A stretch of DNA of 64,000 bases from Thalassia testudinum (Eukaryota > Streptophyta > Magnoliopsida > Alismatales > Hydrocharitaceae), in assembly GCA_037157565.1 (NCBI GenBank), contig JAZHRO010000073.1:17490501-17554500 (forward strand), written 5' to 3'. The translations under genes and the position numbers were made by a program. The notes beneath the pieces are model-generated. The model saw only the letters and a list, made by a program, of their open reading frames with translations, was not told where the DNA came from and did no database searches. This document shows, one piece after another, positions 4,545 to 54,068 of this stretch. Numbering within the stretch: position 1 is the stretch's first letter; each line of letters starts with the position of its first letter.

Positions 4545-5565
4545 GTTTCCCATAGAATCATCTTGCTAGAAGAACATTAAGTATCATATTTATGTAAATG
4601 CTTAAATATCTCTACCTTATATTTTTTTACATGCAATGCAAGGAGTGATTTATTGAGTGCGAGTGGACATGGTATATCACTTTTAGTGTTTAGAAAATTT
4701 TTGCATAGATTTCTGTTTATATTTTACCAACATTTCATCTTAGTTCCTTATATAATGTTCAAAACCCTGGGAAAATTTTGGAAGAGTTTTCCCTTATACA
4801 AAGTAATATTTAAACAAAAAATTTAGATATAATTTCCTGTTACAAAAAGTCATATTTTAACTAAAAATTTTGGTTGAATTGTAGCTTACACAGAAAATTA
4901 ATAGATTAAAAGAAAGTAACCCATAATATCCATTTACGTCTTAGAATTTAGCAAATGTTGCATCATGGGCCAATGAACTATTTCTAAGTCTCCCCAAGGA
5001 AATGCAATGGGATAGTAGAACGAGCTATACTTGCCTTAGATGCTCACCAATCCAGTAATGACCAAGGTGCCATATCTACGAAAAATGCATTGAAGCTTTA
5101 TTTCTTAAAAGATGGGGCATATGTCGTGCTACCATATGCCAATAAATTCTGGAATTTTGCATCGTGAGTTGGTAGAAGACGTCTCTAGGGCTCCCTAAGG
5201 GTGGAATGAAGTAGTAGGCTATGCTTTACAAACCTTGAAAGGAAAACATCAAATTGCAAAGCCACCCTACTCACAAAAGGTCTCACGAGGTTTTCCATCG
5301 GGTAATAGCTAATAATAATAAGCCAAACCATACTAAACCCTAGATTTTTGAAGAGGGAAGGATTTCCCATCCTCTTTAACCTTTTAACGAAGTAGTGATG
5401 GATCCTTTCTTATCTTCCTAGTCTATCCTTCTCTTTAGTAGTGCTTTTCCCTCCTTTTGTTTCCGACATCACTTTGCTCCTTGCTCCTTCTTTCTTCCTC
5501 CCTTTCTTAGCCCTAGGCTTATATGTATTATATGATGGATGGTTGAGAATGATGAACAGAAGGGG
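4545..5565. other. Non-coding flank, possibly remnant internal sequence of an older element
   Basis: There is no supported gene. Two stretches, about 4945-5030 and 5150-5240, resemble each other weakly and may be an old local duplication. The end (AACAGAAGGGGATGTT) is purine-rich, like a polypurine tract, directly before element B. With the CATGGGGG immediately right of B, this may be the 3' internal end of an older element that B interrupted. That is inference. Confidence 0.4.
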
Positions 5566-6018
5566 ATGTTTGATGTACACACATCCATTTAGGTTAAAAT
5601 GACTTTTTATGCATGTTCCTAAGCTTAGGGATGCATTCCATATCATAAATATTGCATAGCATGCATTATTCTGCATTTAGAATAGTTTGTGTAAATTATA
5701 GTTAATTAGTGTCCTTTGGTGGCCAGGAGAGAAGGAGATCTATTTCGGGGCCTTGGATTGACGATCCGACCATATCGATCTGATTAAGACGATGATTAGA
5801 GTCTAATGCCTCTGAAATCGTTTTGATCAGAGTTCCGTAGCACCTTATGCAATCCGAGAAAGGTCAACAGCCAAGGGGCTAGGTGACACACTTTGGAGCT
5901 TTAAAAGACAAATCCAACCACATGGATGGATTTGGATCAACGATCGCAGCCTAATAGTATGAAAATCGACCCAATTCGACGTCTATGGCGTCATCTACAA
6001 GCAAAAGGTGGACGGTCC

Positions 6019-6042
6019 AGATAGTGCCATGTGGCACCATCT
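6019..6042. promoter_or_regulatory. U3 dyad (CATGTG variant of the G-box dyad) in the B 5' LTR
   Basis: The left arm is AGATAGTG, the core CCATGTGG and the right arm CACCATCT. The core has lost the perfect CACGTG of family A, but the arms remain inverted. The position matches the dyads in the other LTRs. Confidence 0.5.
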
Positions 6043-6159
6043 TAGCCGCCTATGGTCGTCTGCTCAGCACTAGAGCATTTGTAGAGCATGATCTCAGCCC
6101 TTGGATCTTGATCCAATGGCTGAGCATGCATCGTACCACTTTCATCATGTTGACAATCT

Positions 6160-6228
6160 GGCGGCTTGACTCATTGGTTACGCACCCTAATATGCAACAT
6201 GAGGCACGGGTTCGAAACTCGCAAATGC
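6160..6228 (+). other. tRNA-like sequence (A box and B box) inside the B 5' LTR
   Basis: TTGACTCATTGGTTACGC (6166-6183) resembles a tRNA D-arm/A box, and GGGTTCGAAACTC (6208-6220) resembles a T-arm/B box. The spacing is within the range found in tRNA genes. A full cloverleaf cannot be drawn convincingly, so this is not called as a functional tRNA. Equivalent pairs occur in the same part of the B', B 3', A1 and A2 LTRs. Confidence 0.55.
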
Positions 6229-6575
6229 CTATAATCCACAGTGCGGGAGGGTTGCGCAAAATTGGACTGTGCAATGCCTGATAAGTGGTTCGGACGAGGC
6301 CGCGTCGAAACACGGATGAAGAGGAGCGCGCACGTGCTATCATACGCATGATCCCACGCTCCATCTAACGCGTGCTTGAGGCGCGATTCGCAGTCTCCCT
6401 TAGCCATGCTATTTGAATAGAATGGCTGCCATTCAATCACATGCTCTCTTAGTGTGATTTCAAAGAGTGGATGCAAGCGGTGGCGTGATGGCTTTAGCAA
6501 CATTTAGGGCGGATCTTTAGCGACACCTTTAATGTCACTAAATGTCCCATGCACGAAATGCCTCCTCTCCTTCAC

Positions 6576-6583
6576 TATAAAAG
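6576..6583 (+). promoter_or_regulatory. TATA box of the B 5' LTR
   Basis: TATAAAAG in the context CACTATAAAAGGACC lies just downstream of the paired TTTAGCGACA/TGTCACTAAA motif. The same context is kept in B' (8185) and the B 3' LTR (32139), and in reverse in family A LTRs. It is the expected Pol II core promoter of the LTR. Confidence 0.75.
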
Positions 6584-7278
6584 GACCCTTACCCCTCCCA
6601 TTTCTCTTGATCTCTTCCTTTGTCTCCCTCACCACCTTTAAGGTTCTAGAGAGAGCTTGTCCCAAGATCGGGATGCTCCTCTAGAGTAGAAATCAAATAT
6701 TTTTCTTGCCTCTCACCCCTATTCCTGGAGCATCTCGTGGCTGTCCCCTAACCAGCTTTTAGAAGAAGATCCTCACCGCGACGCTGTCCCATCTTGCCCT
6801 TCTTCCTCTGACGCCGTTCTCCTTCATTCAGCTTCCCACCACCTTCGTCTGAGATGTCGTAAAAGCGAGCCATCCTCTAGCGACTGTTGAGGGGGATTCT
6901 TCTCAACCTATTCTATCTTTTATTGCTTTCAAGTGTAGTTTCAATTAGTTGTAATATACATCGATCAATTTTATGAAATGTTTCTTTCCCTCTCTTTCTC
7001 TTTCTCTCTCTCTCTCATTTTGTTAGTGTGGAGCAGAATAGATAACAATTCACATGATATTCTATCTTATAAAATACCAAAAAAATCTCAAAAGATAAAA
7101 ATAACAAAAAAAAAATAAAGTCAAAGCGTGGATTTCAAAACCAAATGCTCGCCTCCTTGTGTTCGACCTAGGACTCTCGTTGAGTTTCAGTATAAATTTT
7201 ATTTGATAGTGATATTTTGTGACTACAATGGCGGGTTCTCCAAAACCCTGATTTCCCTCGAGGAATACACGCCCACCA

Positions 7279-7288
7279 TTTTGGCGCT
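7279..7288 (+). other. First part of element B's primer-binding site, interrupted by solo LTR B'
   Basis: TTTTGGCGC follows the LTR end directly, as in other Athila elements whose site begins TTGGCGCCGTTGCC. The site breaks off after GCGCT, where the B' LTR begins, and resumes at 15995 with GCACCATTGCCGGGGA. GCGCT and GCACC are the probable mutated target duplication of B', from an ancestral GCGCC. Confidence 0.7.
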
Positions 7289-7740
7289 TGATGTAGACAC
7301 ATTTAAGTAGGATAAAATGCCTATTCATGCATGTTCGTAGGCTTAGATTTTCATTTCATGTTATAAATATTACATAGCATGCATTATCCTACATTTAGAG
7401 TAGTTGTGTATATTTTAGGTTAATTACTTCCTTTTTATGGCCAGGAGGGAAGGAGATTTATTTTAGGGCCTCGAATGGACGATTTGACCGTATGGATTTG
7501 ATCAGGACGATGCTCGAAGTCTAACGCCTTTGAAATTGTCTAGATCGGAATGCCATAGCACCTTATGTGGCCTGAGGAAGATCAACGACCAGGGGGGTAA
7601 TATGACATCCTTACGAGCTTCGAATGAAAAATCCGACCGTACGGATGGATTCAGAGCGACGATCACAATTCGACAATACGGGAATCATCTCGATCTGAGC
7701 ACCATGGCTCCCTTTGCAACAAAAAGAAGATCGATGAACT

Positions 7741-7764
7741 AGATGGTGCCATGTGGTGCCATCT
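7741..7764. promoter_or_regulatory. CATGTG-core dyad in the B' LTR
   Basis: AGATGGTGCC and GGTGCCATCT surround an ATGT core. The location matches the family A G-box dyads. The central CACGTG has decayed to CATGTG. Confidence 0.5.
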
Positions 7765-7899
7765 GGGCTGCCCAACATTGGTCAACAGCCACCGCCCAAC
7801 CCTTCATCATTTGCGCCCTCATTCCCAGTCATTGGATCTTGATCCAATGGCTGAGAAGCTTCCTCCACCGCATGCCATAAGACGTCTTCTTGACAAACT

Positions 7900-7970
7900 T
7901 GTCAACTTGGTGTAATGGTTGGGACGTTGGCCTCCATTGGAGGGGCGCGGGTTCGAATCCCCGTGCCCCC
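7900..7970 (+). other. tRNA-like sequence inside the B' LTR (best-preserved copy)
   Basis: The A-box-like TTGGTGTAATGGTTGGGA (7907-7924) resembles the D-arm of plant tRNA-Gln. The B box GGGTTCGAATCCC (7949-7961) matches the tRNA consensus. Between them GCCTC and GGGGC can pair as a 5-bp stem around a 7-nt loop, as in an anticodon arm. The acceptor stem is not convincing. A captured tRNA or SINE head is the simplest reading. Confidence 0.6.
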
Positions 7971-8184
7971 CCTCCTGCCAATTGAGAACATGAAGCCAAC
8001 ACAGTGCACATGTGCACGCTAGCACTAGCACCGCAGTGCCAGCACGCGAGCGCGCGACAAGGAGTGAGTGATGCGCATGCCAGCATAAGTGAGGGCAGAT
8101 CTTTTGCAACAGTTGGGTGGGCCTTTAGTGATGATTGTAGCTGTCACTAATGCCCTATGCACGATTTCTTCCTCTTCCTTCCAC

Positions 8185-8192
8185 TATAAAAG
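8185..8192 (+). promoter_or_regulatory. TATA box of the B' LTR
   Basis: TATAAAAG sits in CACTATAAAAGGACC, downstream of the TTTAGTGAT/GTCACTAA motif pair. It is at the same relative position as in the B LTRs. Confidence 0.7.
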
Positions 8193-8975
8193 GACCTACC
8201 CCCCTCTATTCTTCACCATCTCTTTCTTTCTTCCTCACCACCTCTAAGGTTCTAGAGAGAGCTTGTCCCAAGCCCAGGATACTCCTCTAGATTAGAATCA
8301 AATATTTTTCCCTCCCATCATCCCCATTCATGGAGCATCCCACGACCATCTTCTCACCTACTTCAGGAAGTAGATCCTTGCCGCAACACCGTCCTGCCCT
8401 ACCCTCCATCCTCTGGCTCCGTCCTCGTTATTCCCGCTCCTTGCCATCTTCCTCCAGGTGACATTAGAGCGAGTCGTCCTCCGAGCAACCGTCAATGGGG
8501 ATTCTTCTCATCTCTATCTATCTTTATCACTTTCTAGTGTAGTTTTCCTGCTTTCCTAGTTGTAACAAACATTTGTGTTGAACGTTCGAATTGCTACGCT
8601 AACGTGTTCGATTTTGGAGAACCAGTCGTTATAGTTTGAAAGTGAAGAATTCGTGTTCAACAAATAAAATTTATACCGAAATGAAAATTCCAGGTCGAAT
8701 ATAGGGAGGCGGACGTTTGATTTAAAAACTGCGTGTTTCTTTTTATTTGTCATGAAGTAATTCAATTTAAAACTATCTAAGTATCTACAACAAATAGAAG
8801 AGAGAGAGAGGGTAAGAGAGAGAGAATATTATACATAAAAATCAAAATGAGATGTAGAATAAACATAGAATTTATCATCAGGGGGATTGTTCATTACAAC
8901 TAGAAAGCATAAAACAATTACGCTAGAAAGCGATAAATTTACTCTAGAAAGCATTAAAAGAATGGAGGGAGAAAT

Positions 8976-9074
8976 GTCCTCCTCGACGATTGCTTGGAGG
9001 ACGAGCAGAACTACACTAGAAAGTAGTAAAAAAAATAGGGAGAGAGAAATCCTCCTCGACGGTTGCTTGGAGGA
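8976..9074 (-). other. Tandemly duplicated R-U5 hairpin module of the A2 LTR
   Basis: Two copies (8976-9002 and 9050-9074) of a hairpin with TCCTCC/GGAGGA arms and a 13-nt loop lie 48 bp apart, separated by AGAAAGCAGTAAA-type sequence. A1 and the B-type LTRs have a single copy. The right A2 LTR also has two (14295 and 14391), so the duplication predates the A2 insertion. Confidence 0.6.
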
Positions 9075-9312
9075 CGAGTCGGACGGGACGACTCCTGGAC
9101 GAAGGAGAACGAAGCAGGATGAAGGAGGACGAAGCAGAAGAACGGGAACGGTGCAACACGCCGTCGTCGTCGCGGGATCCACTTTCGAAGTGGGACGAAA
9201 ATTTGGACTTTATCTCGCGAGAAGCATCCTAGGTGTGGAACAAGCTTCTCTTGAGCTTTGGAGGGGTAGAGAAGAGAAGGAAGTGATGAGAATTTTGTAT
9301 GGAGGGGGTCTC

Positions 9313-9320
9313 CTTTTATA
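9313..9320 (-). promoter_or_regulatory. TATA box of the A2 3' LTR
   Basis: Minus-strand TATAAAAG in the context ACTATAAAAGGAGACC lies about 60 bp downstream of the TTTAGTGAC dyad. The same arrangement recurs at 14652-14659, 34259-34266 and 44166-44173. Confidence 0.75.
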
Positions 9321-9378
9321 GTTGCAAGGAGTGGGGGCAAAATGGGCATTACAACTTTAAAATAATAAATGAGGGGTC

Positions 9379-9406
9379 TTTAGTGACGGATAAATCCGTC
9401 ACTAAA
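9379..9406. promoter_or_regulatory. Perfect 28-bp palindrome with TGACG half-sites upstream of the TATA box
   Basis: The arms TTTAGTGACGGAT and ATCCGTCACTAAA are exact reverse complements around a 2-nt centre. It is preserved in the A2 right LTR (14718-14745) and the A1 right LTR (44232-44259), and nearly so in the A1 left LTR (34325-34352). TGACG is the half-site of plant TGA-type bZIP factors (as-1-like elements), so a stress-responsive enhancer is plausible. Confidence 0.65.
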
Positions 9407-9675
9407 GCCCCCAACGTGGACGTAGCTCCCGCGCCCATGCGCGCCTCCTCCGCTGCCTGCTTCCTCAACGCCATCGTACGTTCATTGATTTTCAGCCGTC
9501 CGATCGCGAGATTGGATGGCTTAAGACGCATCTCTGCCCGCTGCTGCGCCCGCCTGGCGCTTGTGATCGCACGTGACGACGCGCGTTCAATAGCGCGTGC
9601 TCTCGATTGAGCGCTGATGGCCGTCCGATCGCGATCCAACGGCCGCCATCGCCTGCACGCCCGCGCCTTCCTCAC

Positions 9676-9745
9676 CTTCGCTGCGACTCGAACCCGCGCC
9701 TGCAGCTCGCGTAAGCGCGCTCGACCGCTGTGCTACGAGGTGCGG
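9676..9745 (-). other. tRNA-like sequence in the A2 3' LTR
   Basis: On the minus strand a TAGCACAGCGGTCGAGCG A box (9718-9735) precedes a CGGGTTCGAGTC B box (near 9685-9696). Both fit the internal Pol III promoter pattern. The intervening and acceptor sequences do not give a full cloverleaf. Confidence 0.55.
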
Positions 9746-9783
9746 ATGGTCGAGCGGACGCTTTTAAGCGTGGCTGACCACAG

Positions 9784-9805
9784 CCGTTGGATTGAGATCC
9801 AACGG
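9784..9805. promoter_or_regulatory. CCGTTGGAT/ATCCAACGG dyad in A2 U3
   Basis: Nine-base arms CCGTTGGAT and ATCCAACGG are perfect inverted repeats around TGAG. Comparable dyads with TTGGATC/GATCCAA arms occur in every LTR of the superfamily in the window (near 3985, 6100, 7834, 15108, 18502, 31665, 34730, 44638 and 46975). Confidence 0.6.
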
Positions 9806-9862
9806 CGAAGAGCAAGCAAATGTGGGGTCTTCAGAGGTTGCATGCGGCCGTTTGGGCGGCTG

Positions 9863-9886
9863 AGATGGCACCACGTGGCGCCATCT
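9863..9886. promoter_or_regulatory. 24-bp G-box dyad of the A2 3' LTR
   Basis: AGATGGCA, then CCACGTGG, then CGCCATCT forms a dyad with one mismatched pair around a CACGTG core. Equivalents lie at 15189-15212, 34808-34831 and 44716-44739, with further relatives in B, B', E, F and I. Confidence 0.65.
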
Positions 9887-10339
9887 TGGCCGTCCATCTT
9901 CTGGAAGTTGTAGATGGTGCCACAGATGTCGGATTGACTCGATTTTTGTGTCGTTGGGATGCGATCGTCGATCCGAATTCATCCGTGCGGTCGGATTTGT
10001 CATCTGAAGTACGGATTTACACCATCCTGGCCCTTGATCTTCTAGGGTTCCCCGGTCACTATCTTATGCTACGGATGCCCGATTAGGGCGATCTTAGAGT
10101 CGTTGAAATTCAATCGTCGCCCTGATCACATCCATACGGTTGGATCTTTGATCCGAGGCCCCGATAAAATGTTTACCCTGTCCAAGCACATAAAAGGAGA
10201 TAATTAACCTCCATTTTATTCAAACTACTCTAAATGCAAGATGATGCATGTTATGCAATATTTATATCATGAAATGCAATCCTATGCTTAAGAACATGCA
10301 TAAATAGACATTTTATGTAGTGTAAATGTGTTTACATCA

Positions 10340-10938
10340 TATCCCCATGCCTATCTTTTGCTAGTCCCTAGCAAAAACTATATGCTATTTATAAAGGAAT
10401 TAGGTTGGATTATTTGGACCTGGGTTATTTTCAATCATTAATAAATTGTCTACTTAGGAACTGAACTTTCAAAGACACAACAACACCCGCGTATCAGCCA
10501 AAATGCAGACCGCCTCAAGCCTCGCCTTATTCAAAGAAAAATTTCTTTTTCTCTTTTTACTCTTTTCTAATATTTTTTTGGATTTTCAAATTTTAGGGTT
10601 TAAGAGTGGCTTTCTACGGCCATTCAACTCACCCAAGATTTGTTGAGAACCCTAAGTTTTAAGCATCTTATTGTGAATGTGATAGACTCGTTGACCGGTA
10701 GTTAAAACGGAGTTCGGATTTCTACGCCTTTAGGTGACCTCAAAAAGAATTCTGTCTAAAGGTGTATCTTTACAACTGGTAGCTTTCTCCCTACTTTTAT
10801 TTTTTTACGGGGTCAACACAAGGGTGAATCCAGTGTATATCTCCCCGATTTATTCTACTTCTCCGCTGCTTCCTAAGTGTTTTAGGAATTTTTAGTGCAT
10901 TTACTGAGCTGGGTTCTGGACAACCGGTCGATGAGCTG
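10340..10938 (-). other. 3' UTR and polypurine tract of element A2
   Basis: Next to the 3' LTR the minus strand reads AAAAGATAGGCATGGGGATA, a purine-rich primer tract. The rest is non-coding and nearly matches the A1 3' UTR at 35284-35900, for example the ACCACCGACAACTTGCCAGC block found in both. It also resembles the 3' UTR of B on the other strand. Confidence 0.7.
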
Positions 10939-12708
10939 TTACCACCGACAACTTGCCAGCCATACTTGCGTGAATGTCAGGTCCGCTCCGAGATGAAAAC
11001 GAAAAAGAACTGTATATGTGCTGAGTTTAGTGCCTTCCGCTAGGCACACTATACAAAGAAAAGAAATGAAGAATTCACGAGTGCAGGTTAGAATTAAAAT
11101 AAACAGAAGAATCCTCCGACCTGTCAACAGAGGTCCACAGATGTGGACCAGATTGTGGTGCAGACCCATCCCCCATAATCGAGAATATCTTAGGCTCTGG
11201 ATAAAAATTACCCAAAACCTAAAATCAGAATGCAAGAGGGGTCGGGCCTGCGATTTATGAGGATGCAACTCAAGACCAAAAAGTCGGGTTACAGAGAATT
11301 GAAGTTCAAAAGGATAATCATTGACTGTGTGCTTGAGTTGAACATCCTTGAAACAAATGTCGTAAGGGTTCTGATTTGATGGTTTCAGCTTAAAAGGAAC
11401 CCTTTGACTGAATCTTCCATTTCCTCAAAAGTTAACTTCCCAAATTAGAACTTCCCAGCTCCTATCCTCCTCATTCCGAATGTTAAATTCTGAGACCTCT
11501 TGCATGTTAATCACCCCGTCTGAAATCTCCAAGTCTAAATGATGTGGCAGAATCAGAATTGACTTGGGTCTAATTATCTCAGAAATAGAATTATCGATAA
11601 GCTCAACGGGGTGTAACTGATAATTAGGGCATTGAATTGATTCCTCCAGAAAATGCGATTCTGGATCCGTAATGTGTGCCCTAATAAGATCAGTTTCCTC
11701 AGTTATTGGGCTATCAAATGATCTATCAGATTCCTCAGGCCCAATCATCTCACAGAAATCATGTTCAGAAAACTCGCTTGAGACTTCGCAACTTGAATCT
11801 TCACCATCAAAGAAATCAGGATCCGTATCAATGTATGTCCCAAAATCAGTTGTCACTTTATGTTCCCAGGAGACATACGTTTCCTCGTAACTCGGCTAAG
11901 GGATCTCAGGTGAAGAAATCAGATCTTCCTTAATTGGTCGCTTTAATTCAATCTGGTCATAACACGTGTCCCCCCCAATAGGTGCCTGAGCGGGTTCTGT
12001 CATTGGCTTTCCTGAAGAGGGTTCATCCTGGGAATCATCCCAAGATTGAATCAAAGCAACCACGAATCTCATCCTCAATTTCGCTAATTTCCCAAGTAGA
12101 AACTCACCCGGGTTCTTATCCTTAACGTCCTGGAGCCAATCCAACAAAGACTTATTCAAATCATCAATCATTTCAATCAGGGGCTCCAATCTCTCAATGC
12201 AAGGTATTGGCTGAACTTCTAAAGATTGTATAATATTCCTCAAGTTAGCCATAACCTTATCTTGAACCTGGTTAACCTGAACCAAATGAGTTGGTTCAGG
12301 GTTGGGTGGGTTTGATATCAATGCAGAGGAATTAACGAATTGAGATTCGTTATACCTTTCCTGATAATAGGTCATTTCGGATTGTTCAAAAGATGGTGAT
12401 GACCTAAAGGCAGCGAAATCAGAGGATGGGTAAAGATTGGTGTATCCTTCTTGATTGTAGATCGTATTAGGTTTTCCATGAAAGGAAGACGATCTATAAT
12501 CGATGTAGCTCTGAGAAGGATAGAAATCAGAATCAAAGTGTTCAGGGTTAGACCCTAAACATAGAGGTCCGGAGCTGTATCCCCAATTCGAATTATCCCA
12601 ACTAATTGATGGTCGATTACAATACGAGTCGGGATAATCGTCATGTTGAGGATAATTCACAACAGGAGGAAAAGAGTGGGAATGCGTGAAATATGTGGAA
12701 GGATTCAT
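10939..12708 (-). pseudogene. Orphan protein of non-autonomous elements (A2 copy), about 590 codons
   Basis: One continuous minus-strand frame runs from ATG at 12708 to a stop at 10939-10941. It is interrupted only by TAG at 11896-11898 and TGA at 11425-11427, with no frameshift. The frame is also open upstream to 12744, where TATTGCAGGGC looks like a splice acceptor. The first 150 residues are rich in Tyr, Asn, Ser and Pro. About residues 165-260 look helical (VNQVQDKVMANLRNIIQ, then LLDWLQDV). Next come a strongly acidic segment (TYIDTDPDFFDGEDSS) and a hydrophobic tail with WGMGLHHNLVHICG followed by LLFILIL. It occupies the place of gag-pol. Colinear homologues lie in B and, more diverged, in D. 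It shows no Gag, protease, RT or integrase motif. An env-like origin is possible because of the hydrophobic tail. Function is unknown. Confidence 0.65.
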
Positions 12709-12846
12709 GAGACACGGGAGGAAGAAAGGTGCCCTGCAATACAAATAATCAAACCTGTCCTTAAGTTGGTTAGCCTACAGACCTACAGACTCCCAAAACC
12801 CGTCTTGAGATAAAGGAACGATTTGATCTACTTCCGTCTGTTGAAT

Positions 12847-12965
12847 CCAACCAGTTAGAAGGAGGGACTGGGGAGAACGTTCTTCCTTCGGCTTGCGCCA
12901 CCGGTTCCTAGTGTACCCCCCAGCCGTGATCGTTTGACTCTGCTTCCCTAGCTAGACATTAGATT
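12847..12965 (-). promoter_or_regulatory. Conserved leader block shared by A2, A1 and B
   Basis: About 120 bp of non-coding leader is nearly identical to A1 at 42431-42549 and recognisable in B at 27743-27862 on the other strand. It includes AAGGAAGAACGTTCTCCCC, CTCCTTCTAACTGGTTGGAT and the CTAGGGAAGCAG region on the minus strand. Conservation in elements with unrelated coding content suggests a cis-acting RNA role such as packaging or splicing. That is inference. Confidence 0.55.
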
Positions 12966-13088
12966 GAATAGTAGAAACAGACTAATCGAAAATAATCTCG
13001 TTCTGGGTTCTGAAGAGCGAGTTCAATCCTTAAGGCCAACGTCTACTCTATTTTATTTAGGGCTAGGTTTGAATGTGCTTTGGAATGT

Positions 13089-13116
13089 GATGGGCCCTTT
13101 AAATGGGTTGTGCCCT
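13089..13116 (-). other. GGGCCC palindrome and short hairpin in the A2 leader
   Basis: TGGGCCCTTTAAATGGG followed by TTGTGCCC contains a 6-nt palindrome and a GGGCACAACCC hairpin on the minus strand. The same arrangement occurs in A1 (42671-42699) and B (27591-27620). A dimer-initiation-like role is possible. Confidence 0.4.
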
Positions 13117-13866
13117 TAATGATTGATTGATTTGTGTGTGCGTGCACAACCAATGATTTTCAAGCAAGATTATTTTTGATGTGGTGAATTTTAAGGTTCA
13201 AATCTTGCTTAGTAGCTTTTAGGATTCAACTTTAGGTATTTTCAAACAAGTTTCATTGGCACACCAGGTTTTACAAGCACAGGTGAAGATGTTTTCCTTT
13301 AAAGCTTAAAAAGAATGTGGAGTGCCTGGTAAATCCCTAAGAGTTGAACCTAAGTGGCAGCTACTTGATGAGTTTATTTTATTTGAAGTGGTGCGGACCA
13401 ACAACTCAAACAATTGGCCTGATGCACCACTTAATTAGGCACACAAATGATTACCTAATCTGATTTCTACTCAATTATGTGTTTGAATGTGTGTACCGGT
13501 TCCTGAGGTTGGTTTACCGGTTGAGTTTGAAAATCAGATGAGGTTATGTACCTCTTTGAGATTTTTTTAAGTTTTTCTTTTTTTTAATGTGGGGGTTGGG
13601 GTGAGTATGGGTGTCAAAAAATAAACAATCTAACCTTAGAGTTTATAAAAACACCTAGGTTGATTGATGTTTGAATTATTATATTGTGAAATGAAATCTA
13701 ATGGGTGGGGGGTGTGGGATAACTCACAGAACCTTCCACAGTACTTTACTTTGATCTATCGCTTTTTCCTGTCTCGAAAGAGTACCTGCAATTACAATAA
13801 GAAAGGAGAAAAAGTGAGGTAAATGATTTGTAAGTTACAAGACGCGAAGAGAAATCAAAGATCGTC

Positions 13867-13887
13867 GCCTCCCTGGCAACGACGCCA
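13867..13887 (-). other. Primer-binding site of element A2
   Basis: On the minus strand TGGCGTCGTTGCCAGGGAGG lies 3 bp inside the right LTR. It differs little from the Athila consensus TGGCGCCGTTGCCGGGGA, which is attributed to tRNA-Asp priming. It fixes the direction of the element. Confidence 0.8.
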
Positions 13888-13890
13888 AAA

Positions 13891-15666
13891 TGTTGAACGT
13901 TCGAATTGCTACGATAACGTGTTCGATTTTGGAGAACCTGTCGTTGTAGTTTGAAAGCGAAGAATTCGTGTTCAACAAATAAAATTTATACCGAAATGAA
14001 AATTCCGGGTCGAACATAGGGAGGCAGACGTTTGATTTAAAAATTACGCGTTTCTTTTTATTTGTCACGAAGTAATTCAATTTAAAACTATCTAAGTATC
14101 TACAACAAATAGAAGAGAGAGAGGGTAAGAGAGAGAGAGAGAGAATATTGCACATAGAAATCAAAATGAGATGTAGAATAAACATAGAATTTATCATCAG
14201 GGGGATTGTTCATTACAACTAGAAAGCATAAAACAATTACACTAGAAAGCGATAAATTTACTCTAGAAAGCATTAAAAGAATGGAGGGAGAAATGTCCTC
14301 CTCGACGATTGCTTAGAAGACGAGCAGAACTACTCTAGAAAGCAGTAAATCTATACTAGAAAGCAGTAAAAAGAATAGGGAGAGTGAAATCCTCCTCGAC
14401 GGTTGCTTAGAGGATGAGCCGGACGGGACGACGCCTGGACGAAGGAGAACGAAGCACGACGAAGGAGGACAAAGCAGAAGAACGGGAACGGAGCAGCACG
14501 CCGTCGTCGTCGCGGGATCCACTTCCGAAGGGGACGAAAATTTGGACTTTATCTCGCGAGAAGCATCCTGGGTGTGGGACAAGCTTCTCTTGAGCTTTGG
14601 AGGGGTAGAGAAGAGAAGGAAGGGATGAGAATTTCGTATGGAGGGGGTCTCCTTTTATAGTTGCAAGGAGTGGGGGCAAAATGGGCATTACAACTTTAAA
14701 ATAATAAATGAGGGATCTTTAGTGACGGATAAATCCGTCACTAAAGCCCCCAACGTGGACGTAGCTCCCATGCCCACGCGCGCCTCCTCAGCTGCCCGCT
14801 TCCTTAACACCATCGCACGTTCATTGATTCTCAGCGATCGGACGGCTTAAGACGCATCTCTGCCCGTTGCTGCGCCCGCCTAGCACGTGCGATCGTGCGT
14901 GACGACGCACGTTCAATAGCGCGTGATCTCGATTGAGCGCTGACGGCCGTTCGATCGCGATCCAACGCCTGCCATCGCCCGCACGCCCGCGCCTTCCTCA
15001 CCTTCGTTGCGGCACGAACCCGCGCTCGCAGCTCACGTAAGCGCGCTCGATCGCTACGCTACGAGGCGTGGATGGTTGAGCGGACGCTTTTAAGCGCGGC
15101 TGACCACAACCGTTGGATCGAGATCTAACGGCAGAGAGCGAGCGAGTGCGGGGTCTTCAGTGGTTGCATGCGACCGTTTGGGTGGCCGAGATGGCACCAC
15201 GTGGCACCATCTTGGCCGTCCATCTTCTGGAAGTTGTAGATGGTGCCATAGATGTCGGATTGACTCAATTTTTTGTGTCGTTGGGCTGCCATCGTCGATC
15301 CGAATTCATCCGTACGGTTGGATTTGTCATATGAAGTGCGGATTTACACCATCGTGGCCCTTGATCTTCTAGGGTTCCCTAGTCACTATCTGATGCTACG
15401 GATGCCCGATTAGGGTGATTTTGGAGTCGTTGAACTCCAATTGTCGCCCTGATCACATCTATACGGTTGGATCTTTGATCCGAGGCCCTGATAAAATGTT
15501 TGCCCTGTCCAAGCACATAAAAGGAGACAATTAACCTCCATTTTATTTAAACTACTCTAAATGCAAGATGATGCATGTTATGCAATATTTATATCATGAA
15601 ATGCTATCCTATGCTTAAAAATATGCATAAATAGACATTTTAAGTAGTGTAAATGTGTTTACATCA
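13891..15666 (-). repeat. 5' LTR of element A2
   Basis: This is a 1,776-bp direct repeat of the LTR at 8576-10339, with a few percent divergence by eye. It has the G-box dyad at 15189-15212, a tRNA-like pair at about 15004-15070, the TTTAGTGAC palindrome at 14718-14745 and a TATA box at 14652-14659. It holds two hairpin copies near 14295 and 14391 and a GA tract (CT on the sense strand) near 14112-14143. Confidence 0.9.
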
Positions 15667-15994
15667 ATTTGTTTCGAAATATATGATTGTTTCTCTCTCT
15701 CTCTCTCTTTCTTTTATATTTTGCAAGTAGATTAGCTAGATAAAATTTCATCAACCTGATCTCTTGCCCTATTAAAAATAAAAAAATTATAAAAGATAAA
15801 AAATGACAAAAAATAAATAAAGCGAAACATGTATTTTTCAAAACCAAACTTCACCTTCCCATGTTTGACCTGGGACTCACTTTTTGAGTTTCGGTTATAA
15901 ATTTTTTCTGATCGACGAATGTTCTCGTGAATCGAACTACGACGATGGATTTTCCAAACCCGAACCCTTTCCTCGTGTGAATCTGATGTTATTA

Positions 15995-16236
15995 GCACCA
16001 TTGCCGGGGATCTCGCTCTTCATTTTGGTGCCGTTGCTGAGGAGGCAATGCTCTTTGGTTTTTTCATGTTTTTTGCCTTAACTTTTATCTTACTTTTTCT
16101 ATGATATTATTGTGATTGCAGGTACTCTTCCGTGGTGGGCCAGAGCGGTTATAATGGAGAAAAGTGTGGATGAAGGTTCTGTAAGTGTATCCCCACCACC
16201 CCTACCCATTAGATTTCACTTCGTCATACTAATAAC
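15995..16236 (+). other. Resumed primer-binding region and start of the B leader
   Basis: After the B' insertion the sequence continues GCACCATTGCCGGGGATC and then, 23 bp on, TTTTGGTGCCGTTGCTGAGG (16023-16042). Both resemble the Athila primer-binding site, so element B carries two tandem site-like copies. A TTGTGATTGCAGGTAC stretch near 16110 resembles a splice acceptor and is matched in the A2 and A1 leaders. The leader is then broken by element D. Confidence 0.6.
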
Positions 16237-17084
16237 TAATGGAACAATTCTCATTTTTGTTGAATTTTTAAACATAAAGTGATGTGTCATATTTTGTCGC
16301 GTGGCAGAAAATCACTTAATCAAAGATTAAAATAGGTGTCAATTTAAACCATGAGGGTTAGGTTGTATCCACATGGAGGTTTAAGCCTAATAAAACTCGT
16401 AAATTGCTTATCTTATTATTCCATCATGATAGAGCCTACAATTATAGTTTAACATGCAATGTACGTAAGGCTAATAGATTAAATAGATATGCAATCAGAT
16501 AATATAGCAAAAACTCAAGGGGCTGGCTGCAATTCATGTAATAAATAAATATTCTAAGAAACATAGCCCACAATTTTCTAAACCAAGAAAGTCAGCCAAC
16601 AACTTAATCCCCTTGCATTATTGAATTAGCCATGTGCGTTGGAAGAGGGATTGAATGCATAGGAGAAAAGAATGAATTACCAGATAATTATAGAAAAGCT
16701 GAGGGGCTGGTCAACAATATTACTCAATAAATTAGAATTATTTTATTTGAAATAAACACTCACACAATATTGCTCTGGAGGATGGTCGGTCGGTGCGAGG
16801 GTAGTTCGATGATGGTGGAATCATGGCATGGGGCAGCCGGGCATGGCCGGTTAGAAGAAAGGGAGATGGTGGGTCACGCTCTGTTTACAGCAGCTTGCGG
16901 CACTGGCGATGGGTGCGCGAGGGGTGTGGACGGCTGAGGTGAGCTGCAAATGGAGTGGTCGCCAGGCGTGCGCTAGGTGGAACGACGTGGGGGCACTGGC
17001 TACATTGTTGGTGGCGCGGGCTGCGTTGCTGGTGGTGCGGGATACGCTGCTGGTGGTGCACCCACACGCAGAGCCCGTTGCTGG

Positions 17085-18911
17085 TGGTGTGTGATTGCAC
17101 GGGTTTCGCATGTTTGAAATCGAGGTTACAAGTAACCCATCATTGTAGTTGCAAAACTCGTGATCAAATAAAATTTATACCGAAACTCCAAGGGAGTTCC
17201 AGGTTGAACACAGGGAGGCAACGTTTACTTTGTATGAAAATCGTGCATTGATTTATTTGTTTTTGGTATTTTAAAGTTCTGTTATTTTTTTGTGTTTTTG
17301 AAAGAAGATAAGAAGAATAAATCACAAGAGATATTGAACAAATGTGATATATATCATGAATGTCTATTACAATAATCTACGAAAGCATAAAAAGAGATGG
17401 TGATGAGAAGAAATCTCCCGAAGTGGCTATTCGGTGAGACAATGGTACCTGGCAGAAGCTCGGACGAAGGAGGTGAGGAGCGGGATGATGGAGGTGAGAT
17501 GCAGGAGGACGTTAGGTAGAGGAAAGCTTCAGTGTAGCTTTGGAATGGTGGTGAGGAGGTAGAGATGATCTACTACTGGAATGGAGGTGGGAGGATGGCT
17601 CCAAGATGACTTATGAATGGGGATGGGAAGATGGAGGAATATTTAGTAAGGCAGAGGTTCGCTACACTAATAGGAGCCTTGGGAGCTTGAGAGTAAGCTC
17701 TAATGGAGTGTTGGTAGGCTTGCTAGAGCTTAGGAGTAGTTGGGAGTAGAGTAGGTAGAGATGAAGAAGAATGGGGGGTGTAGGGGTGTTTATATAGTGG
17801 AGGGAAGAAGAGCATCCCGCACATAGGCATTCAGCAACAGCTACAAGCATCACTAAAGGCCGCTCAAGCTGTCGCCAAAAGATCCATGCCTCTTCAATGC
17901 CTTTGCTGGCGCACGCACTACGCAGGCCATTTAGTGATAGCTGCAAGTGTCACTAAAGGCCCGTTCTTCTGTCGTAAATCCCACGTCCAACACTCACCCT
18001 CGCAGCTGTCATAGGCGTGGCGATCGTCGATCATTGGATCAGGCGTGGATGACTACGATTGCGAGAGGAGAGCGTGTGCCTGCCAGCGTTTGAAATTCAC
18101 ACCACTGGTGCGTGCGTTGGCAGCCATCGGATGAGGCATTGCACGGTTGAGGTGCGCTTGCAGATCACGCGCGCTCTGATTTGAATCGCGCTCCTCGCAC
18201 TATTGTGAAGATCCGACGGCGGGCGCTGCTCGCGATCGACTTAAATGCACACCCTAGATGGCATGCGTGTGATCTGGCGTTTCCTTCGCGTCGGTGGGTG
18301 ACGTTGGATTGCACGTGGGGAATCTCAACCGCTCGATTGCGATCGGGTGGCCCTATTGCAGCTGGCATTCTAGTGGGCGTAGCGCATCGCGGCTCGATCT
18401 CACGCTCGCTCTTTGAGATCTCTCATCCTCATTGTTGCGCCACATCTGTGGGTGTGTTGTGAAGAAGAATTGCGACTGTGCAGTGAGGGCTGCCTCTCAG
18501 TCGTTGGATCTTCATCCAACGGTTGAGATCACTTAAGGGGCAGCCTTTGAAGATGTGGCGGGTGGCTTTGGGCACTCGAGATGGTGACACGTGGCGACAT
18601 CTGGACTATCCACACTTCATTGCTTGCAGAGGATGCCACGGTGCTCGGATCGAGGTGATTTCTATTTTGTTAGATTGCGATTGTCGCTCTGGATCCATTC
18701 GTACGGTTGGATTTTTCATCCAAAGTTCGTAAGGACGTCGCATTGCCTCCTGGCCATATAAAATAAAGGAATTAATATACAAAACATACAACTATCCTAA
18801 ATGCCATGCAATGGATGTTATGCAGTATTTATAACATGATATGCAATGCTAAGCCTAGGAACTATCATAAATAAGCAATTTATCATGAATTCTTGTGTGT
18901 TTATTAATGCA
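17085..18911 (-). mobile_element. Solo LTR E inside the left LTR of D
   Basis: A 1.8-kb LTR-like block interrupts D sequence that is continuous near 26140-26170. It carries the superfamily marks: ACACAGGGAGGC near 17208, a TATA-like ATATAAAC on the minus strand near 17792, CACTAAAGGCC motifs near 17850-17965, a CACGTG dyad at 18579-18602 and a TTGGATCTTCATCCAA dyad near 18502. Its U3 terminus is near 18911. Both exact ends and the target duplication are unresolved. Confidence 0.6.
18579..18602. promoter_or_regulatory. G-box dyad in solo LTR E
   Basis: AGATGGTGA, CACGTG and GCGACATCT form an imperfect dyad. The exact CACGTG core is kept although the flanks differ from family A. Confidence 0.5.
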
Positions 18912-19744
18912 CCAACATGCGGGGGCGAGGATGTGCGAGGGGACTTAGGTAGGGGTGGCTTGCTAGTGGCGTGCACAAGGATGTGCGTAAGGAGCTGGTG
19001 GCGAGCGGTGGGTGTGATAGCGTGTAGAGAAGGTCTTGCTGGTGCGTGTGCGCAGGACGCATGCGGTCGCTACGTGGTGAGTGTGGTGTTGGTGGCACTC
19101 TCGGTTGCATGTGGGTGCAAAGGAGATGTTGGGTTCCTTTTGGAAAGTTGCAGGGGGCGGTTGGAAGAAGAAGAAGAAGGAAAGGGAAGAAGAAAAGGAA
19201 GGGGAAGGGCAGAGGCTTTGGCGAGGGAGCTCGATGGTGCTCTGGATGGTGTTGGTAGTGGTGATGGTGTGTGTGCTATCACCGCACACACCACGACAGG
19301 GAAGGTGGAGGTGTTATCTTTTATCCACAGTGCACGCTTTCTCCACAGTGTTTGCCCCGGCCACGGTGTTGGCGAGGGAGGAGATCCCCGTAGGGGGAAG
19401 GATGTTTTCAAAAGAGAAGAGCCCCTGCTTTTGTACTTCTTCGCGAATCATCTCCACCTCCTCTCCCCTTTTCACGGCTTCCATTAACTCTACCTAAAAA
19501 TAGCCTGTTTTGGGTTGGCCAGCCATGAAGAGGGTGAGTGGGTTAGGCGGAGGAGCTTGGATTTATTCCTAAAATAATAAAATATGAAATAATTATTTAT
19601 ATTTATAAGATGCAATAACACATATGCAAACCTAAGTAATGATGCATGAATCATTTTATGACCTAATGTAGGTGTTAACGAACATAAAATGCAAGAATAA
19701 AGTTAACTTAGGTGTAACAGTAGTCCATTCAAATGGACTCATCA

Positions 19745-21387
19745 AATACCTTCATGCATAAGTTTTGCTTGTCCCTAGCAAAAATGAAAAGTGATGGAAG
19801 TGACCAAAGGATTTCTTCTTTTCTAATTCCAAAAACTTAGAGATTTAGAAAAATGTGAAGTGATAGTAGCCTAGGTAATGGATCCAAGTGAAAAGCCAAC
19901 TTACACTTACAGTTTATACTTAACCCTTGATAAAACTTCTATTAGGATAGGCAAATCCTTCCCTCAAGGATAAAGTAGAAAAGAATATGAGATTTGGCCC
20001 CAGCTTTCTAGCTTAGGTAGGACATACAGAGTCAAATGGATTTATATTTAGTGGTTTACACTCGTCTGGTGTTACATGTAGTCTACTACTAGAGACTCTA
20101 AATCTTTAGACTATCAAGCAAGTCACCCCAGAGAGAGGTTAAAAACTGTGCTCTCTATGCGTTCCTTTGTACTCACTCACTCTCTCTTTTCATTTTTCAT
20201 TTTTTCTTTTTCTTCTTCCTTTTCTGAGATCACATATCTTACCTGATTTTGTAAATGTACTCACTATTTGGTGGCCTCACGTAGCATCCACATTTTAGGT
20301 AAAGTTCTAATAACCCTACAACTAAGTTAGAAGTCCTCAGCCAGTATTCGGACAATCAGAAATACTGGAAAATAGGTATGGACAATATTTTGTGGATCGC
20401 AATGAATGTTATTGTTGTTGCCTCCAAAACATCGACATAATGAAAAATGATACTAAGATAAATTATAAACTTGAACTCTTTTCTTGTTCTTTTCTCTCTC
20501 TCTTCTTTTTTTTTCATATTTTTCTAACTATAAATGTTTCTTTTTCTTTTTCTTTTTTTTTTTAACTACTAACACAAAATGACGTATACTTTTATTAATG
20601 AGGCATTATTAGGGATGATGATGATCAAGAGGATGTTGTGTAGCTTATTTGGTGGAAGTGCCTACTCTTGACATTGGGAAGGAATGGATAGGACAATTGT
20701 ATTTCTGACTTTTGACACTATTACCCTCCTTCAGTCGAGGACTCTATGAAGGATGGTCATAACCATCCACCATAGTCATAGTTTTATTATGACTCTATCT
20801 CTATGTATCTGCCTTGTTTGGCGACTCTCAGGATTTCACACACTATTTGCATACAAGAACAGAGAGCGAAAACTATGCCTAACTCTGAGGTATCATCATC
20901 TAATTGTCTAGAACTTAAGAGTCCTTACACTAGATTTAGTGCACCAGTAATCTCTCTACTTTCTCCTTACAAACAATAGGTGGATCTAATAGAAGATAGT
21001 TTGCTTAACTCCCTTCAAATTGTCTATGGATTTAGTCAACTAAAAATGCTTAGTGGTTTTCTTCAAAGATCCATTACCCAGTATATGTGCATGTGAATGT
21101 ACTGGATTCTAAACTCAGAAACAATTTAACAAGAAACTCTTCAATGACACCTCCTTGACAAAGATGTTTTGCTAGTGCACCCAACCTAAATGCATGAATC
21201 CTACCTAAAAATGCAAAATGCACACCCCCATGCCTAAATCTTACAATGTCCTCATTGTAAAATTAAAACTGGGGGAGAAAGGAAGGAAATCACCTGATGA
21301 AGGCATTATTCAGGACGTTGGGTTGCCTCCCAACAAGCGTTGCATTTTCTGTCAACAGCTGGACTTATAGGGAACCTGTAAGTCTGG
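19745..21387 (-). other. 3' UTR of element D
   Basis: No coding region is supported. A polypurine tract lies next to the LTR. The sequence includes pyrimidine-rich runs near 20170-20225 and 20480-20565. Confidence 0.55.
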
Positions 21388-23345
21388 TTACAAACAGAAA
21401 GAGCTATGCCCTAAAAATATGCATAACAGTGCGGGCTTAGAAAACAGGTAGCCATGAATGTTGGCGAGCTGATGATGCAGCGTGATTCTAAATGCTCGCC
21501 AGAAGGTATGAAAATAGAGAACCTCGTAGGCTACCTGGGGAGGTCTAGGAATAACAAAAGGAACATGAAAAGGGACCTCCCAAAATGGAATAAGTGGAGG
21601 ATAACTAGGGTCCTCCAAAGTAGGAAGGGTTTTAAAAGATATAAACATAACAATTTCAAACCCTTGAATGGTGAGACTAAAAGTACAAGCATCAATCCAC
21701 ACTCGCCATTCTACCTGACGATGTACTGGCCTAATATGTTCCCTAGAAAGAATATAAGTAAGCAGAGACCTGAGCCAAGGATCGGTAAGGGAGTGTAAGG
21801 GTTGCTTGTGGTGTTGGGCGGTAATGGTTAAGTCCATGGAGGGCTTAGTTTGTGTCCAGTTCAACAATTCAGATTTTGTATTATTCTCCCTAATAGTTGT
21901 AGAAAAATTCACATCACCCTGCCTATCATTAATGATTTCCTCAAGAATCGGAGTCATATTTTCACCTTCTGGTGAATCAATGGTGGACTCCAAATCAAAT
22001 TCCTTTGATGGCAGGGTCGAAGCAACAAAATCATTATCATTAATTTCATCCCCGGATTCTTTTGGTTCACTTAAATTTTTGTTGAGGTGTATATGTGATT
22101 CACCAGTAAAGAGAGGAGTTGCTTCAGTATCCTCAATTATTTTTGAAGGAGGATCAGTCTTAATGTTTTGGAGTAAGCCTATATCACTTAATTCTTTGTT
22201 CTCCTCGGAGCATAAATCCTCAATTGATGTGTATTATCCCCGAGAGTCTCCCCTAGGCTTCTCACTATTATGTTTGTTCTCCTTCAATATCAACTCTTAA
22301 TTTTGCGGAGGATGACTCTCAGAGTCAAAAGAAGAGAGAGATCCGGATTTCACCAAATCATCAATATCCTCGGGGGGTAAGTCCTTAAATAATACATAAT
22401 CCCCTTGAGATTCACTCCAAATTCTAAGTCCGGGTTCCTCCATTGGGTCCTCATCCTCCTCTAGAATAGACTCTTTGTATCCCTGAGATCAAAATTGATC
22501 CAATTCATCTTCCATTCCCCTAGGGTCACCTACATTAGGTATATGTAAATCCTCAAGATGTTGCATGGGAGGTGTTGGCTCCCTAGGTGGAGGATCAGGA
22601 TTAGGCTCACTAAGGGTAGAATGGGTTTCCACCACATGATCAATCGAGGAAGTGATATGACTAGCATGACCTTGACTTGGGTCATCAGGGGTAGGAAACA
22701 TACTGTCAACTGAGTCAAGGTCCTTAGATGGTACTATCTTCCCTTCCTTTTGAATCCAATATAGCTCAGGTGGATAATCACTAGGATCATTCTCCTCTAG
22801 AGGCCTTGTCTCATGGGGATTGTCTAAGTGATAGCTACTACTCAAAATGAAATCCCTGTTGTCATTGGTTTCCTCAGAATTATTTTGATGATCAATGTTG
22901 TATGAGTAGGAATCAGAATCAATAGTAGGAAGGTAGCTCAGTTGACTAATTTCCTCATTCAGTCGTTGACTATTCCTCTACATCTCTTCCATAGACTTCA
23001 TCATTTCTTTTTGTTGTTTTTGCATTTCTATCATAAAAGAGGAGAGGCTACTACTATCAGATTAAGGAGGATAGTCAATCTCAGGCTCTGGTTGCCTAGG
23101 GGTATCGATCCAGCCTCGATAAGGAAAATCATGAAGGGTGGGAGGGTTGGGTGTTTGAAAATTGAAAAATTCCATTCCTAGGCTCTGCTCAAAAGTGGGA
23201 GTTATCAGGCCAGTACTCCTAGGATAGGAATACGATTGATCCCATGAATTGTCATTATACCCATCAAAGGATGGATATGCTTGGGGCATGGGATTCGGAA
23301 GTGTTGACTCTGATAATTTAAATGATAGGAGTAAGGGTGATCCAT
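21388..23345 (-). pseudogene. Decayed orphan protein of element D, about 650 codons
   Basis: The likely start is ATG at 23345 (MDHPYSYHLNYQ), with one frameshift before 23289. From 23289 to the stop at 21388 the minus strand is one frame broken by several nonsense codons (one ends at 23062 and another at 22489) but by no further frameshift. The N-terminal region is rich in Tyr, Ser and Pro (YNDNSWDQSYSYP). A Met/Gln/Lys-rich helix follows (MIEMQKQQKEMMKSMEEM). The middle is long, acidic and Pro-rich. The C-terminus is hydrophobic and ends near NIHGYLFSKPALLCIFLGH, resembling the tails of the A2 and B proteins. It occupies the whole coding part of the element. Homology to A2/B is weaker than between A2 and B. 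Function is unknown. Confidence 0.5.
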
Positions 23346-24592
23346 TTCTTCAAGCCAAACAGGTTTAACTCTCTTAGGATTTAGAACAAATCAGAATAAA
23401 AATAGAAACTTCCTAAAGAGTTCTACCACTGTCAAAAGAAACGCAAATACAGTGGGATCTATTTTTAGTAGATTCTAGGTCTTAGAATTAAGTATTTAGT
23501 TGGTGGCCAAACAAGTTTTGCAAGAATTATGCTTCCTAGGCTGACTTTCGTTGGTGCCTACAACCTACTTGTAGGGAATGGAAGTCTCGAATCGAGCCCA
23601 CGCATGAGGAACTGAAGTAACTTGGTGGATAGGCTTGTTGATTTCTAACTAACTTCCCTTGTGGTGCAAAGAGGAGAGGTAACAATTTATCTAGTGACCT
23701 TATGTGTGATGTACATAGTGTATCAAGTGGGCAACACACGTACGCATTTTGAATTTTGAAATCTTGCAAACAAGATCCTTTTGCACATAGTTTCAAGTCA
23801 TAGATTTTAAGGTCAACCTCTTAGCAGTCCCAATTTTTTTAAAGTGTTCACTAAATTAATTAGATTCAAACACTCTAGTGGTCTTGAATTTAAGTTCAAT
23901 GCAGATGCATGATAGGTATTTGATGTTAAAGAGAATACGTACCTTACTCTAGCTTTCTTTGCGCAAGATGTCTGCAATGCAGAAGTATAAACTAGATGCT
24001 GCTCATTCAAACCTAGATGGTCGTCCTATAGATATGCAGCTTCTAGTAGGCAGTTCGAATTTTTTTTTTCTTTTTCTTTCTTTTTATTTTTTTTTATCAC
24101 ACAATTCAAACAAACCTAAACAACCGACAACTAGCAAACCACATAAAATAATAGTCCTAGTTACTAAAGAAATGGGACATGCTCCCAAAAATACCCTAGA
24201 ACAAGGGCCCAATCAATCCAACAAAATTGGGGAACAAACCTTGCAAACCAACCCAAATGAACAAGGGTGAGAAAACAATGAATAAAAATTTTGAGTCAAA
24301 AGTTTATTCTAACACCTAATTAAATGGAAGGTGGATAGGAGAAGTCCTCCTCAATGAAACTCCAGGTTTCTCAATCTCTCAGCTACTTGTCTCCTCGCTA
24401 GGTGGAATCGAGGCTCATAGGCTTCTGCGATTATCTCTGAGGTGGTGACAAGGTCCACCAAGATGAGCGTCCGTTGTGTGTGCCTTCTCCTTCGATGTAC
24501 CTCACACGGAAAAAATGATAGATCAATGAATATAATCTCAATTAGAGCTTAATGTAGACAGAAAGAATACTTGAGAGTTTACTAGGCCTGTT
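23346..24592 (-). other. Leader of element D
   Basis: This is non-coding sequence between the primer-binding site and the orphan frame. A poly(T)-rich run lies at 24059-24095. The conserved leader block of A1/A2/B was not recognised here. The short open frames look like chance. Confidence 0.5.
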
Positions 24593-24611
24593 GCCTCCCC
24601 GGCAACGGCGT
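24593..24611 (-). other. Primer-binding site of element D
   Basis: On the minus strand ACGCCGTTGCCGGGGAGGC directly follows the LTR end. Apart from the loss of the leading TTGG it is the Athila-type site, and it gives the element its minus-strand direction. Confidence 0.75.
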
Positions 24612-33600: not shown

Positions 33601-33822
33601 TGTTGAACGTGTTTTTGAATCGCTACGCTTATGCGTTTGGTTTTGGAAAATCTGTCGTTGTAGTTCGAAAGCGAAAAATTCGTGTTCAACAAATAAAAAT
33701 TTATACCGAAAAGAATTCCGGGTTGAACATAGGGAGGCTACGTTGATCTATATTCGCAATTATATATTTTTTTTAGGATTTTTGTTAAGCAAGGTGATAT
33801 AATTACAATGGAGCTATCAAAC

Positions 33823-33867
<45 letters not shown>

Positions 33868-38395: not shown

Positions 38396-38421
38396 AATTG
38401 GAGCACAGGTGACTGCCGTTT

Positions 38422-40236: not shown

Positions 40237-40238
40237 GA

Positions 40239-43536: not shown

Positions 43537-43539
43537 AAA

Positions 43540-54065: not shown

Positions 54066-54068
54066 GTT

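Follow-up and report, generated by a model that had tools for sequence, protein, structure and literature searches.

An orphan reading frame in place of gag-pol in two related Ty3/gypsy-type elements of Thalassia testudinum carries a modest signal of purifying selection

The question raised by a 64,000-nucleotide stretch of the Thalassia testudinum genome (assembly GCA_037157565.1, contig JAZHRO010000073.1, positions 17,490,501 to 17,554,500 of the forward strand; the whole stretch is called the window, and positions are counted from its first letter) is whether a long open reading frame (ORF) lying in the place of gag-pol in long terminal repeat (LTR) retrotransposons was once a maintained gene or a passenger. 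The window contains LTR retrotransposons nested in one another. Two of them, A2 and B, keep LTRs, a primer-binding site (PBS)-like site and untranslated regions (UTRs) like those of a gag-pol element, C, and one ORF fills the interval that gag-pol occupies in C. We give a probability of roughly 0.6 to the joint reading that A2 and B are non-autonomous Ty3/gypsy members, that their ORF was a real gene once under selection, perhaps for a particle accessory protein, and that a third element, D, is a probable member of the group.

Element A2 was delimited on the minus strand at 8576-15666 by paired LTRs (3' LTR, 8576-10339; 5' LTR, 13891-15666; 93.3% identical over 1750 aligned bases), TG...CA ends and a 5-bp target duplication, ATTTG, at 8571-8575 and 15667-15671, the host site lying inside another LTR. 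Its ORF occupies 10939-12708 of the minus strand (opening with ATG at 12708 and ending in TAA at 10939-10941), in the sense orientation relative to the LTR and the PBS-like site. An earlier interpretation made from the letters without database searches (the sequence-only reading) had described this frame as interrupted by just two stops and no frameshift, and exactly this was found (TAG, 11896-11898; TGA, 11425-11427). The longest stop-free run was 292 codons, against 205 at most in 300 Markov shuffles, and two stops were counted in 600 codons, against at least 16 in 100 shuffles. The predicted protein has a helical core (12019-12291, minus strand; residues 140-230 were used for fold prediction and residues 140-225 for substitution analysis), an acidic middle (net charge -17 at residues 301-360) and a hydrophobic stretch at residues 533-555. 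At 10939-11015 the frame continues beyond its similarity to B, into the 3'UTR common to A2 and C.

Element C (33601-45191, minus strand; LTRs at 33601-35283 and 43540-45191) carries Ty3/gypsy-type domains, all on the minus strand: gag at 41328-42263 (Retrotrans_gag, PF03732, E 2.8e-21), a first part of pol at 38736-40238 (RVT_1, E 3.5e-18, with a protease-like stretch slightly below the cut-off) and a second part at 36875-38569 with RNase H and integrase (RT_RNaseH, rve). C has ends of the same type as A2, with CATCA on both sides, although its LTR itself also ends in CATCA; A2 and C were both scored as insertions with 5-bp duplications. C is probably the type of the autonomous partner, and we take the lineage of A2, B and C, whose domains here show the Ty3/gypsy type, to be presumably Athila-like.

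The LTR and 3'UTR of A2 (9011-10968) matched those of C (33954-35907) at 87.5% identity over 1975 columns, and the 5'UTR with the LTR edge (12747-14025 against 42332-43676) at 74.2%; unmatched between these ends were the ORF, present only in A2, and gag-pol in C. The comparison of B with C gave the same pattern (3'UTR and LTR, 72.0%; 5'UTR, 71.8%). PBS-like sites adjoin the 5' LTRs and, against an 18-base reference that we assumed to be the tRNA-Asp-type site, showed one mismatch in C (43536), two in A2 (13870-13887, minus strand) and three each in D (24613) and B (16026). No gag-pol match above the Pfam cut-off was found in the pieces of A2, B and D that were scanned, whereas C matched. The PBS-like sites and the missing gag-pol match thus agree with the earlier description of all three as elements with a PBS, polypurine tract and LTRs and no gag-pol; the polypurine tracts beside the 3' LTRs were recognised by eye only. 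By region, identity between A2 and C was 0.928 in the 3'UTR, 0.860 in the LTR and 0.836 in the 5'UTR. A2 thus appears mosaic (8576-10968 against 33601-35907), and the difference between its 92.8% C-like 3'UTR and 83.6% C-like 5'UTR suggests that A2-type and C-type elements exchanged ends.

A 29-nt 3' motif (GAGGACATTGCATCATTTAAGCATGGGGG in B) was located after the ORF in B (29846-29874, plus strand) and D (21225-21253, minus strand), and after pol in C (36487-36515, minus strand) and in element E (52377-52405, minus strand), with no, four, five and eight mismatches to the B form, respectively, amid otherwise diverged sequence; it may act as a conserved signal for replication or transcription. 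E (48337-61655) is, beside C, another gag-pol element, now decayed; its LTRs, each about 2.7 kb long, share 88.7% identity, and it has matches to gag and reverse transcriptase and an integrase match below the cut-off. PBS-like site, LTR and 3' signals are thus common to A2, B and a gag-pol element, the 29-nt motif excepted in A2.

The ORF of B (about 27984-29723, plus strand) is homologous to that of A2 over its full length. The proteins had been described as colinear over most of their length, and the alignment bears this out (tblastn, 41% over 596 columns, E 2e-96; DNA identity of the ORFs, 73%). Each ORF comes to about 590 codons, in keeping with the 590-650 proposed; the B copy is more broken than had been claimed, with nine stops among 535 codons aligned in the A2 frame and frame changes near 28541 and 28861 and possibly near 29702. 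Its longest stop-free runs, 151 codons on the strand opposite the ORF and 131 on the ORF strand, are not above chance (null maximum, 249), and the fewest stops in 520 codons, 11, is slightly below the null minimum of 12. The LTRs of A2 and B, taken earlier for clearly different families, are instead related (71.8% over 1137 columns of LTR and 3'UTR).

LTR pieces of B were found, with no clear target duplication. The 3' LTR lies at 31134-32611 (plus strand; right end approximate), and a PBS-like site with the start of the 5'UTR at 16026-16238 (plus strand), the 5'UTR resuming from 26984 after the insertion of D. Two PBS-like sites, at 16026 and 15993, each have 3 mismatches in 18. A candidate 5' LTR, 7288-8575 and 15667 onward, leads into the PBS-like site; a second LTR, 5563-7045, is nearer to the B 3' LTR in sequence (0.842 against 0.751 for the candidate). 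The two B-type LTRs, 5563-7045 and 7288-8575/15667-16020, adjoin, and the PBS-like sites at 15993 and 16026 follow. At the far end of the window, 62571-64000 holds another LTR with a B-like 5'UTR (63472-63845); it extends past the window and may belong to a further member of the group.

Selection was assessed on the pair A2 and B by counting the ratio of nonsynonymous to synonymous substitution rates (dN/dS) in frame over 525 codons, after codons with stops had been dropped. The ratio was 0.452 (bootstrap 0.35-0.59), as compared with 0.68-0.84 in the five other frames of the same alignment. Of 1000 neutral simulations built on the pair's own substitution pattern (mean 0.616), two gave a value as low. 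The nine stops in B compare with 20.2 +/- 4.4 under neutral drift, nine being also the lowest simulated value, and indels in multiples of three numbered 11 of 34 within the ORF, against 1 of 22 for the 5'UTR and 6 of 36 for the LTRs of A2 and C. Among six regions the core had the lowest ratio (0.246; 5/1000 neutral runs as low), and the tail had 0.298 (13/1000); both regions were picked after the data had been seen. Because A2 and B have decayed since insertion, as the A2 LTR identity indicates, the ratio is pulled toward neutral. The signal of purifying selection on the A2/B frame is modest. The sequence-only reading had named a dN/dS near 1 across many copies as evidence against function; the value obtained, for one pair, is below neutral.

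An intact relative was found when the 588-residue read-through protein of A2 was searched against 5.8 billion protein sequences: among 4044 candidates one match was obtained at E<=1, here called P0002. It comes from a JGI metagenome contig of 5655 bases, belongs to a cluster of six sequences, has 597 residues with 89% identity to A2 over 99% of the length, starts like A2 and has no internal stops. A comparison of A2, P0002 and B at 492 sites found 260 identical in all three, 18 changed in A2 alone, 12 in P0002 alone and 179 in B alone; in alignment columns 151-200, A2 and P0002 differed at 1 of 50 sites. Like the A2 frame, P0002 continues beyond the part similar to B. Searched against the window, it gave no match to C or E better than E 0.8. 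The first 292 residues of the A2 frame gave no match at E<=0.01 (213 candidates in the same 5.8 billion sequences). No relative of A2 or P0002 was found in IMG/VR, a result that is uninformative because the C gag control also found nothing there. Within the limits of one pair and one intact relative, sequence comparison thus identifies the ORF as a real gene under purifying selection while the lineage moved.

Element D (about 16240-26977, minus strand; PBS-like site at 24613) is inserted in the 5'UTR of B. Two pieces of its LTRs (about 16240-19744 and about 24615-26977, minus strand) are 87-88% identical and one is 73% identical, the rest not being alignable, and no clear target duplication was found. 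The main open frame, 21388-22977 on the minus strand, has three internal stops, with a possible N-terminal part upstream to about 23316 that contains one further stop; its stop-free maximum of 281 codons (null maximum, 170) and its three stops in 520 codons (null minimum, 14) are beyond chance. D was not found by tblastn with A2, the alignment of A2 with its main frame scored no better than shuffles, and its read-through protein gave no match at E<=1 (5028 candidates, 5.8 billion sequences). A C-terminal segment common to A2 and B (LHH.L..I.G.LF) is present in D at 21412-21498 (minus strand). About 29 residues of the B and D tails are alike (0/1000 shuffles as good), the P0002 and D tails less strikingly so (32/1000), and hhalign picked the segment at the colinear position in D (E 0.037, probability 1.4%); its HH stands 224 bases ahead of the 29-nt motif in D and 245 in B. 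A Tyr-rich start matching that of A2 was rejected, 353 of 1000 shuffles of the N-termini being as good. Judging from these likenesses, D probably belongs to the A2/B group as a third and strongly diverged member. Of the same protein order proposed for D, the layout, the long frame, the 3' motif and the tail of about 29 residues are found, and the Tyr-rich start and the rest of the protein are not; likewise, retention of an own protein over several lineages is upheld for A2 and B (dN/dS, stops, indels, intact relative) and extends in D to the short C-terminal segment and its position only.

Searches of the orphan proteins against Pfam and NCBIfam gave nothing above cut-off (weak Pfam lines at E 0.07-0.23 were taken as chance), and neither a DNA- or RNA-binding domain nor PF04195, the Retand accessory domain, was found. 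Against PDB by sequence, the best matches had E 0.35 and 0.98 and were likewise taken as chance. Three classifications were rejected. A TR-GAG or other Gag-only partner was set aside, the ORF not being Gag by sequence (Pfam, alignment, hhalign). Large retrotransposon derivatives (LARD) and terminal-repeat retrotransposons in miniature (TRIM) have by definition no coding capacity, and are ruled out by an open frame beyond chance and by the selection. A Retand TRP28-type accessory ORF does not fit a sense ORF without PF04195.

On the joint reading, the proteins of a C-type partner would package, reverse transcribe and integrate the RNA of A2 and B in trans, which is the standard reading of such pairs, with criteria given in PMC11302176, PMC5738225 and PMC13270711 (published systems are cited from excerpts throughout). 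The orphan protein might help its own RNA to replicate, either as an accessory associated with the particle or in the place of Gag, a role to which we give somewhat less than even odds; its helical core would self-associate and its hydrophobic tail would anchor it to a membrane or particle. The sequence-only reading had suggested RNA binding, particle association or suppression of host silencing, and the analyses yielded evidence for none of the three. This role is preferred because of the position of the ORF, the helical core, the hydrophobic tail and the capsid-like proteins of two RLG_Sabrina variants. A number of results weigh against the joint reading. The selection signal comes from a single pair; the ORF without core and tail has a dN/dS of 0.566, which is not below neutral (282/1000 neutral runs as low), and the regional contrast is not significant, 71 of 300 codon-order shuffles yielding a minimum window equally low. 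Differences by codon position are almost flat (136/561, 154/561 and 167/562), divergence between A2 and B is greater in the ORF (27%) than in the 3'UTR (22.5%) or 5'UTR (20.5%), and a small control, a B-type LTR pair, had 2 of 7 indels in frame. The 29-nt motif is absent from A2, a zinc-knuckle pattern was found in neither A2 nor D, and the search for functional homology found none. The full-length fold model of A2 is worthless (predicted local distance difference test score, pLDDT, 28), and the core model, three helices with pLDDT 64 and a predicted template modelling score of 0.36, is weak and matched no PDB fold at E<=0.001 (best E 1.7).

Some of these results are what a captured host or foreign passenger sequence would give, open merely through a young ancestor of the copies: near-neutral evolution of most of the ORF beyond core and tail, flat codon positions, and more divergence than in the UTRs. 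We nevertheless consider a passenger unlikely, since the pair, 27% diverged, has a sub-neutral dN/dS, fewer stops than expected and an excess of in-frame indels, and since P0002 is intact. It would be similarly surprising if the ORF encoded a Gag that has diverged strongly, or a virus-derived protein of capsid type, unrecognisable by sequence, with A2 and B as Gag-type partners. In cereals, this lineage commonly has partners that encode Gag alone (PMC5738225), the proteins of two wheat RLG_Sabrina variants are reported to be capsid-like at the structural level (PMC9744471), and the Tyr/Ser-rich, helical and acidic order loosely resembles, by eye, C gag downstream of its capsid region. Yet no Pfam match was obtained where C gag reaches 2.8e-21, alignments of A2 with the C gag pieces were at shuffle level (z scores 1.0 and 0.5), hhalign against C gag gave probabilities of 0.1% and 0.5% (profiles of one or two sequences, low power), the zinc knuckle is missing, and the fold matches obtained with the weak core model include no capsid. 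A degraded Gag, which the sequence-only reading had named as the outcome that would speak against it, accordingly has no sequence support, in comparisons that have little power to detect a very distant relationship.

A protein with a role in transcription or in shielding the element against silencing by the host, like accessory proteins proposed elsewhere in plants, is compatible with selection on the ORF, and the antisense accessory protein of Retand, kept in 97% of clusters, has been proposed to be regulatory (PMC11963269). The acidic protein with its hydrophobic tail and without a DNA- or RNA-binding domain is no obvious nuclear regulator, however, and we regard this role as improbable. Some Athila elements have an env-like gene behind pol, from which the ORF could remain after deletion of gag-pol. 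Its place just upstream of the motif found after pol in C and E, and its hydrophobic tail, would suit such an origin, which is nonetheless very unlikely: there is no Pfam match, the C sequence ahead of the motif looks, by eye, like the terminal part of pol, and P0002 finds nothing better than E 0.8 in C or E.

Returning to a selected, non-autonomous element with a protein of its own, a broader proposal is an old class of such elements with one protein that is not Gag, Pol or Env, built of a helical core and a hydrophobic tail and selected across subfamilies. This generalisation is doubtful at present; if it is true, the protein of the class would benefit its own RNA in the partner's particles or against silencing, and D would show the age of the class. 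Plant genomes hold many non-autonomous LTR elements, which are usually viewed as passive or as Gag donors. With a copy pair that carries a measurable selection signal and an intact relative, whether such proteins act becomes testable on a concrete protein.

Among described systems, the closest in kind are the wheat RLG_Sabrina_NA variants, in which gag-pro is replaced by sequences for proteins without homology, two of them compared on structural grounds with viral proteins that form capsids (PMC9744471). They too have unrelated protein-coding sequence in the gag-pol region, a likeness drawn from the description alone, and differ in being from wheat and in their short proteins; the excerpt describes no selection test. 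The oat element RLG_Beth encodes only a large unknown protein (PMC13270711); by description RLG_Beth resembles A2 and B in this lone protein, and RLG_Beth and RLG_Ava differ in belonging to the centromeric (CRM) lineage of oat. In the wheat pair RLG_Cereba and RLG_Quinta the LTR ends and PBS are common to the partners and the non-autonomous one retains coding capacity, with a domain of unknown function (DUF1) as part of it, yet RLG_Quinta keeps a clear Gag (PMC11302176), whereas none is recognisable in A2 or B. Variants of wheat Fatima have LTRs 91% identical and dissimilar internal regions, and the ORFs of nonautonomous ones include the hypothetical protein PTREP232, known here by description; unlike A2 and B, nonautonomous Fatima still codes for gag and protease (PMC3129301). 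The barley elements RLG_Sabrina, RLG_WHAM and RLG_Derami are non-autonomous members of the Athila clade with PBS and LTR ends like those of the presumed partner, but their proteins are Gag, Gag remnants or none, unlike those of A2 and B (PMC5738225). TR-GAG elements have two LTRs and a single ORF, as A2 does, the ORF being Gag, and one of them transposed in Arabidopsis ddm1 (PMC8704663). Retand with its TRP28 ORF has a conserved accessory protein of unknown role, and some members are non-autonomous; that ORF is antisense, lies after pol and carries a named domain, whereas the ORF of A2 and B is sense and in the place of gag-pol (PMC11963269). The kind of element is thus already published in wheat RLG_Sabrina_NA and oat RLG_Beth (PMC9744471, PMC13270711, as excerpted). 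What is added here is a selection test of such a protein between two diverged subfamilies, which the published descriptions compared do not contain, together with an intact relative.
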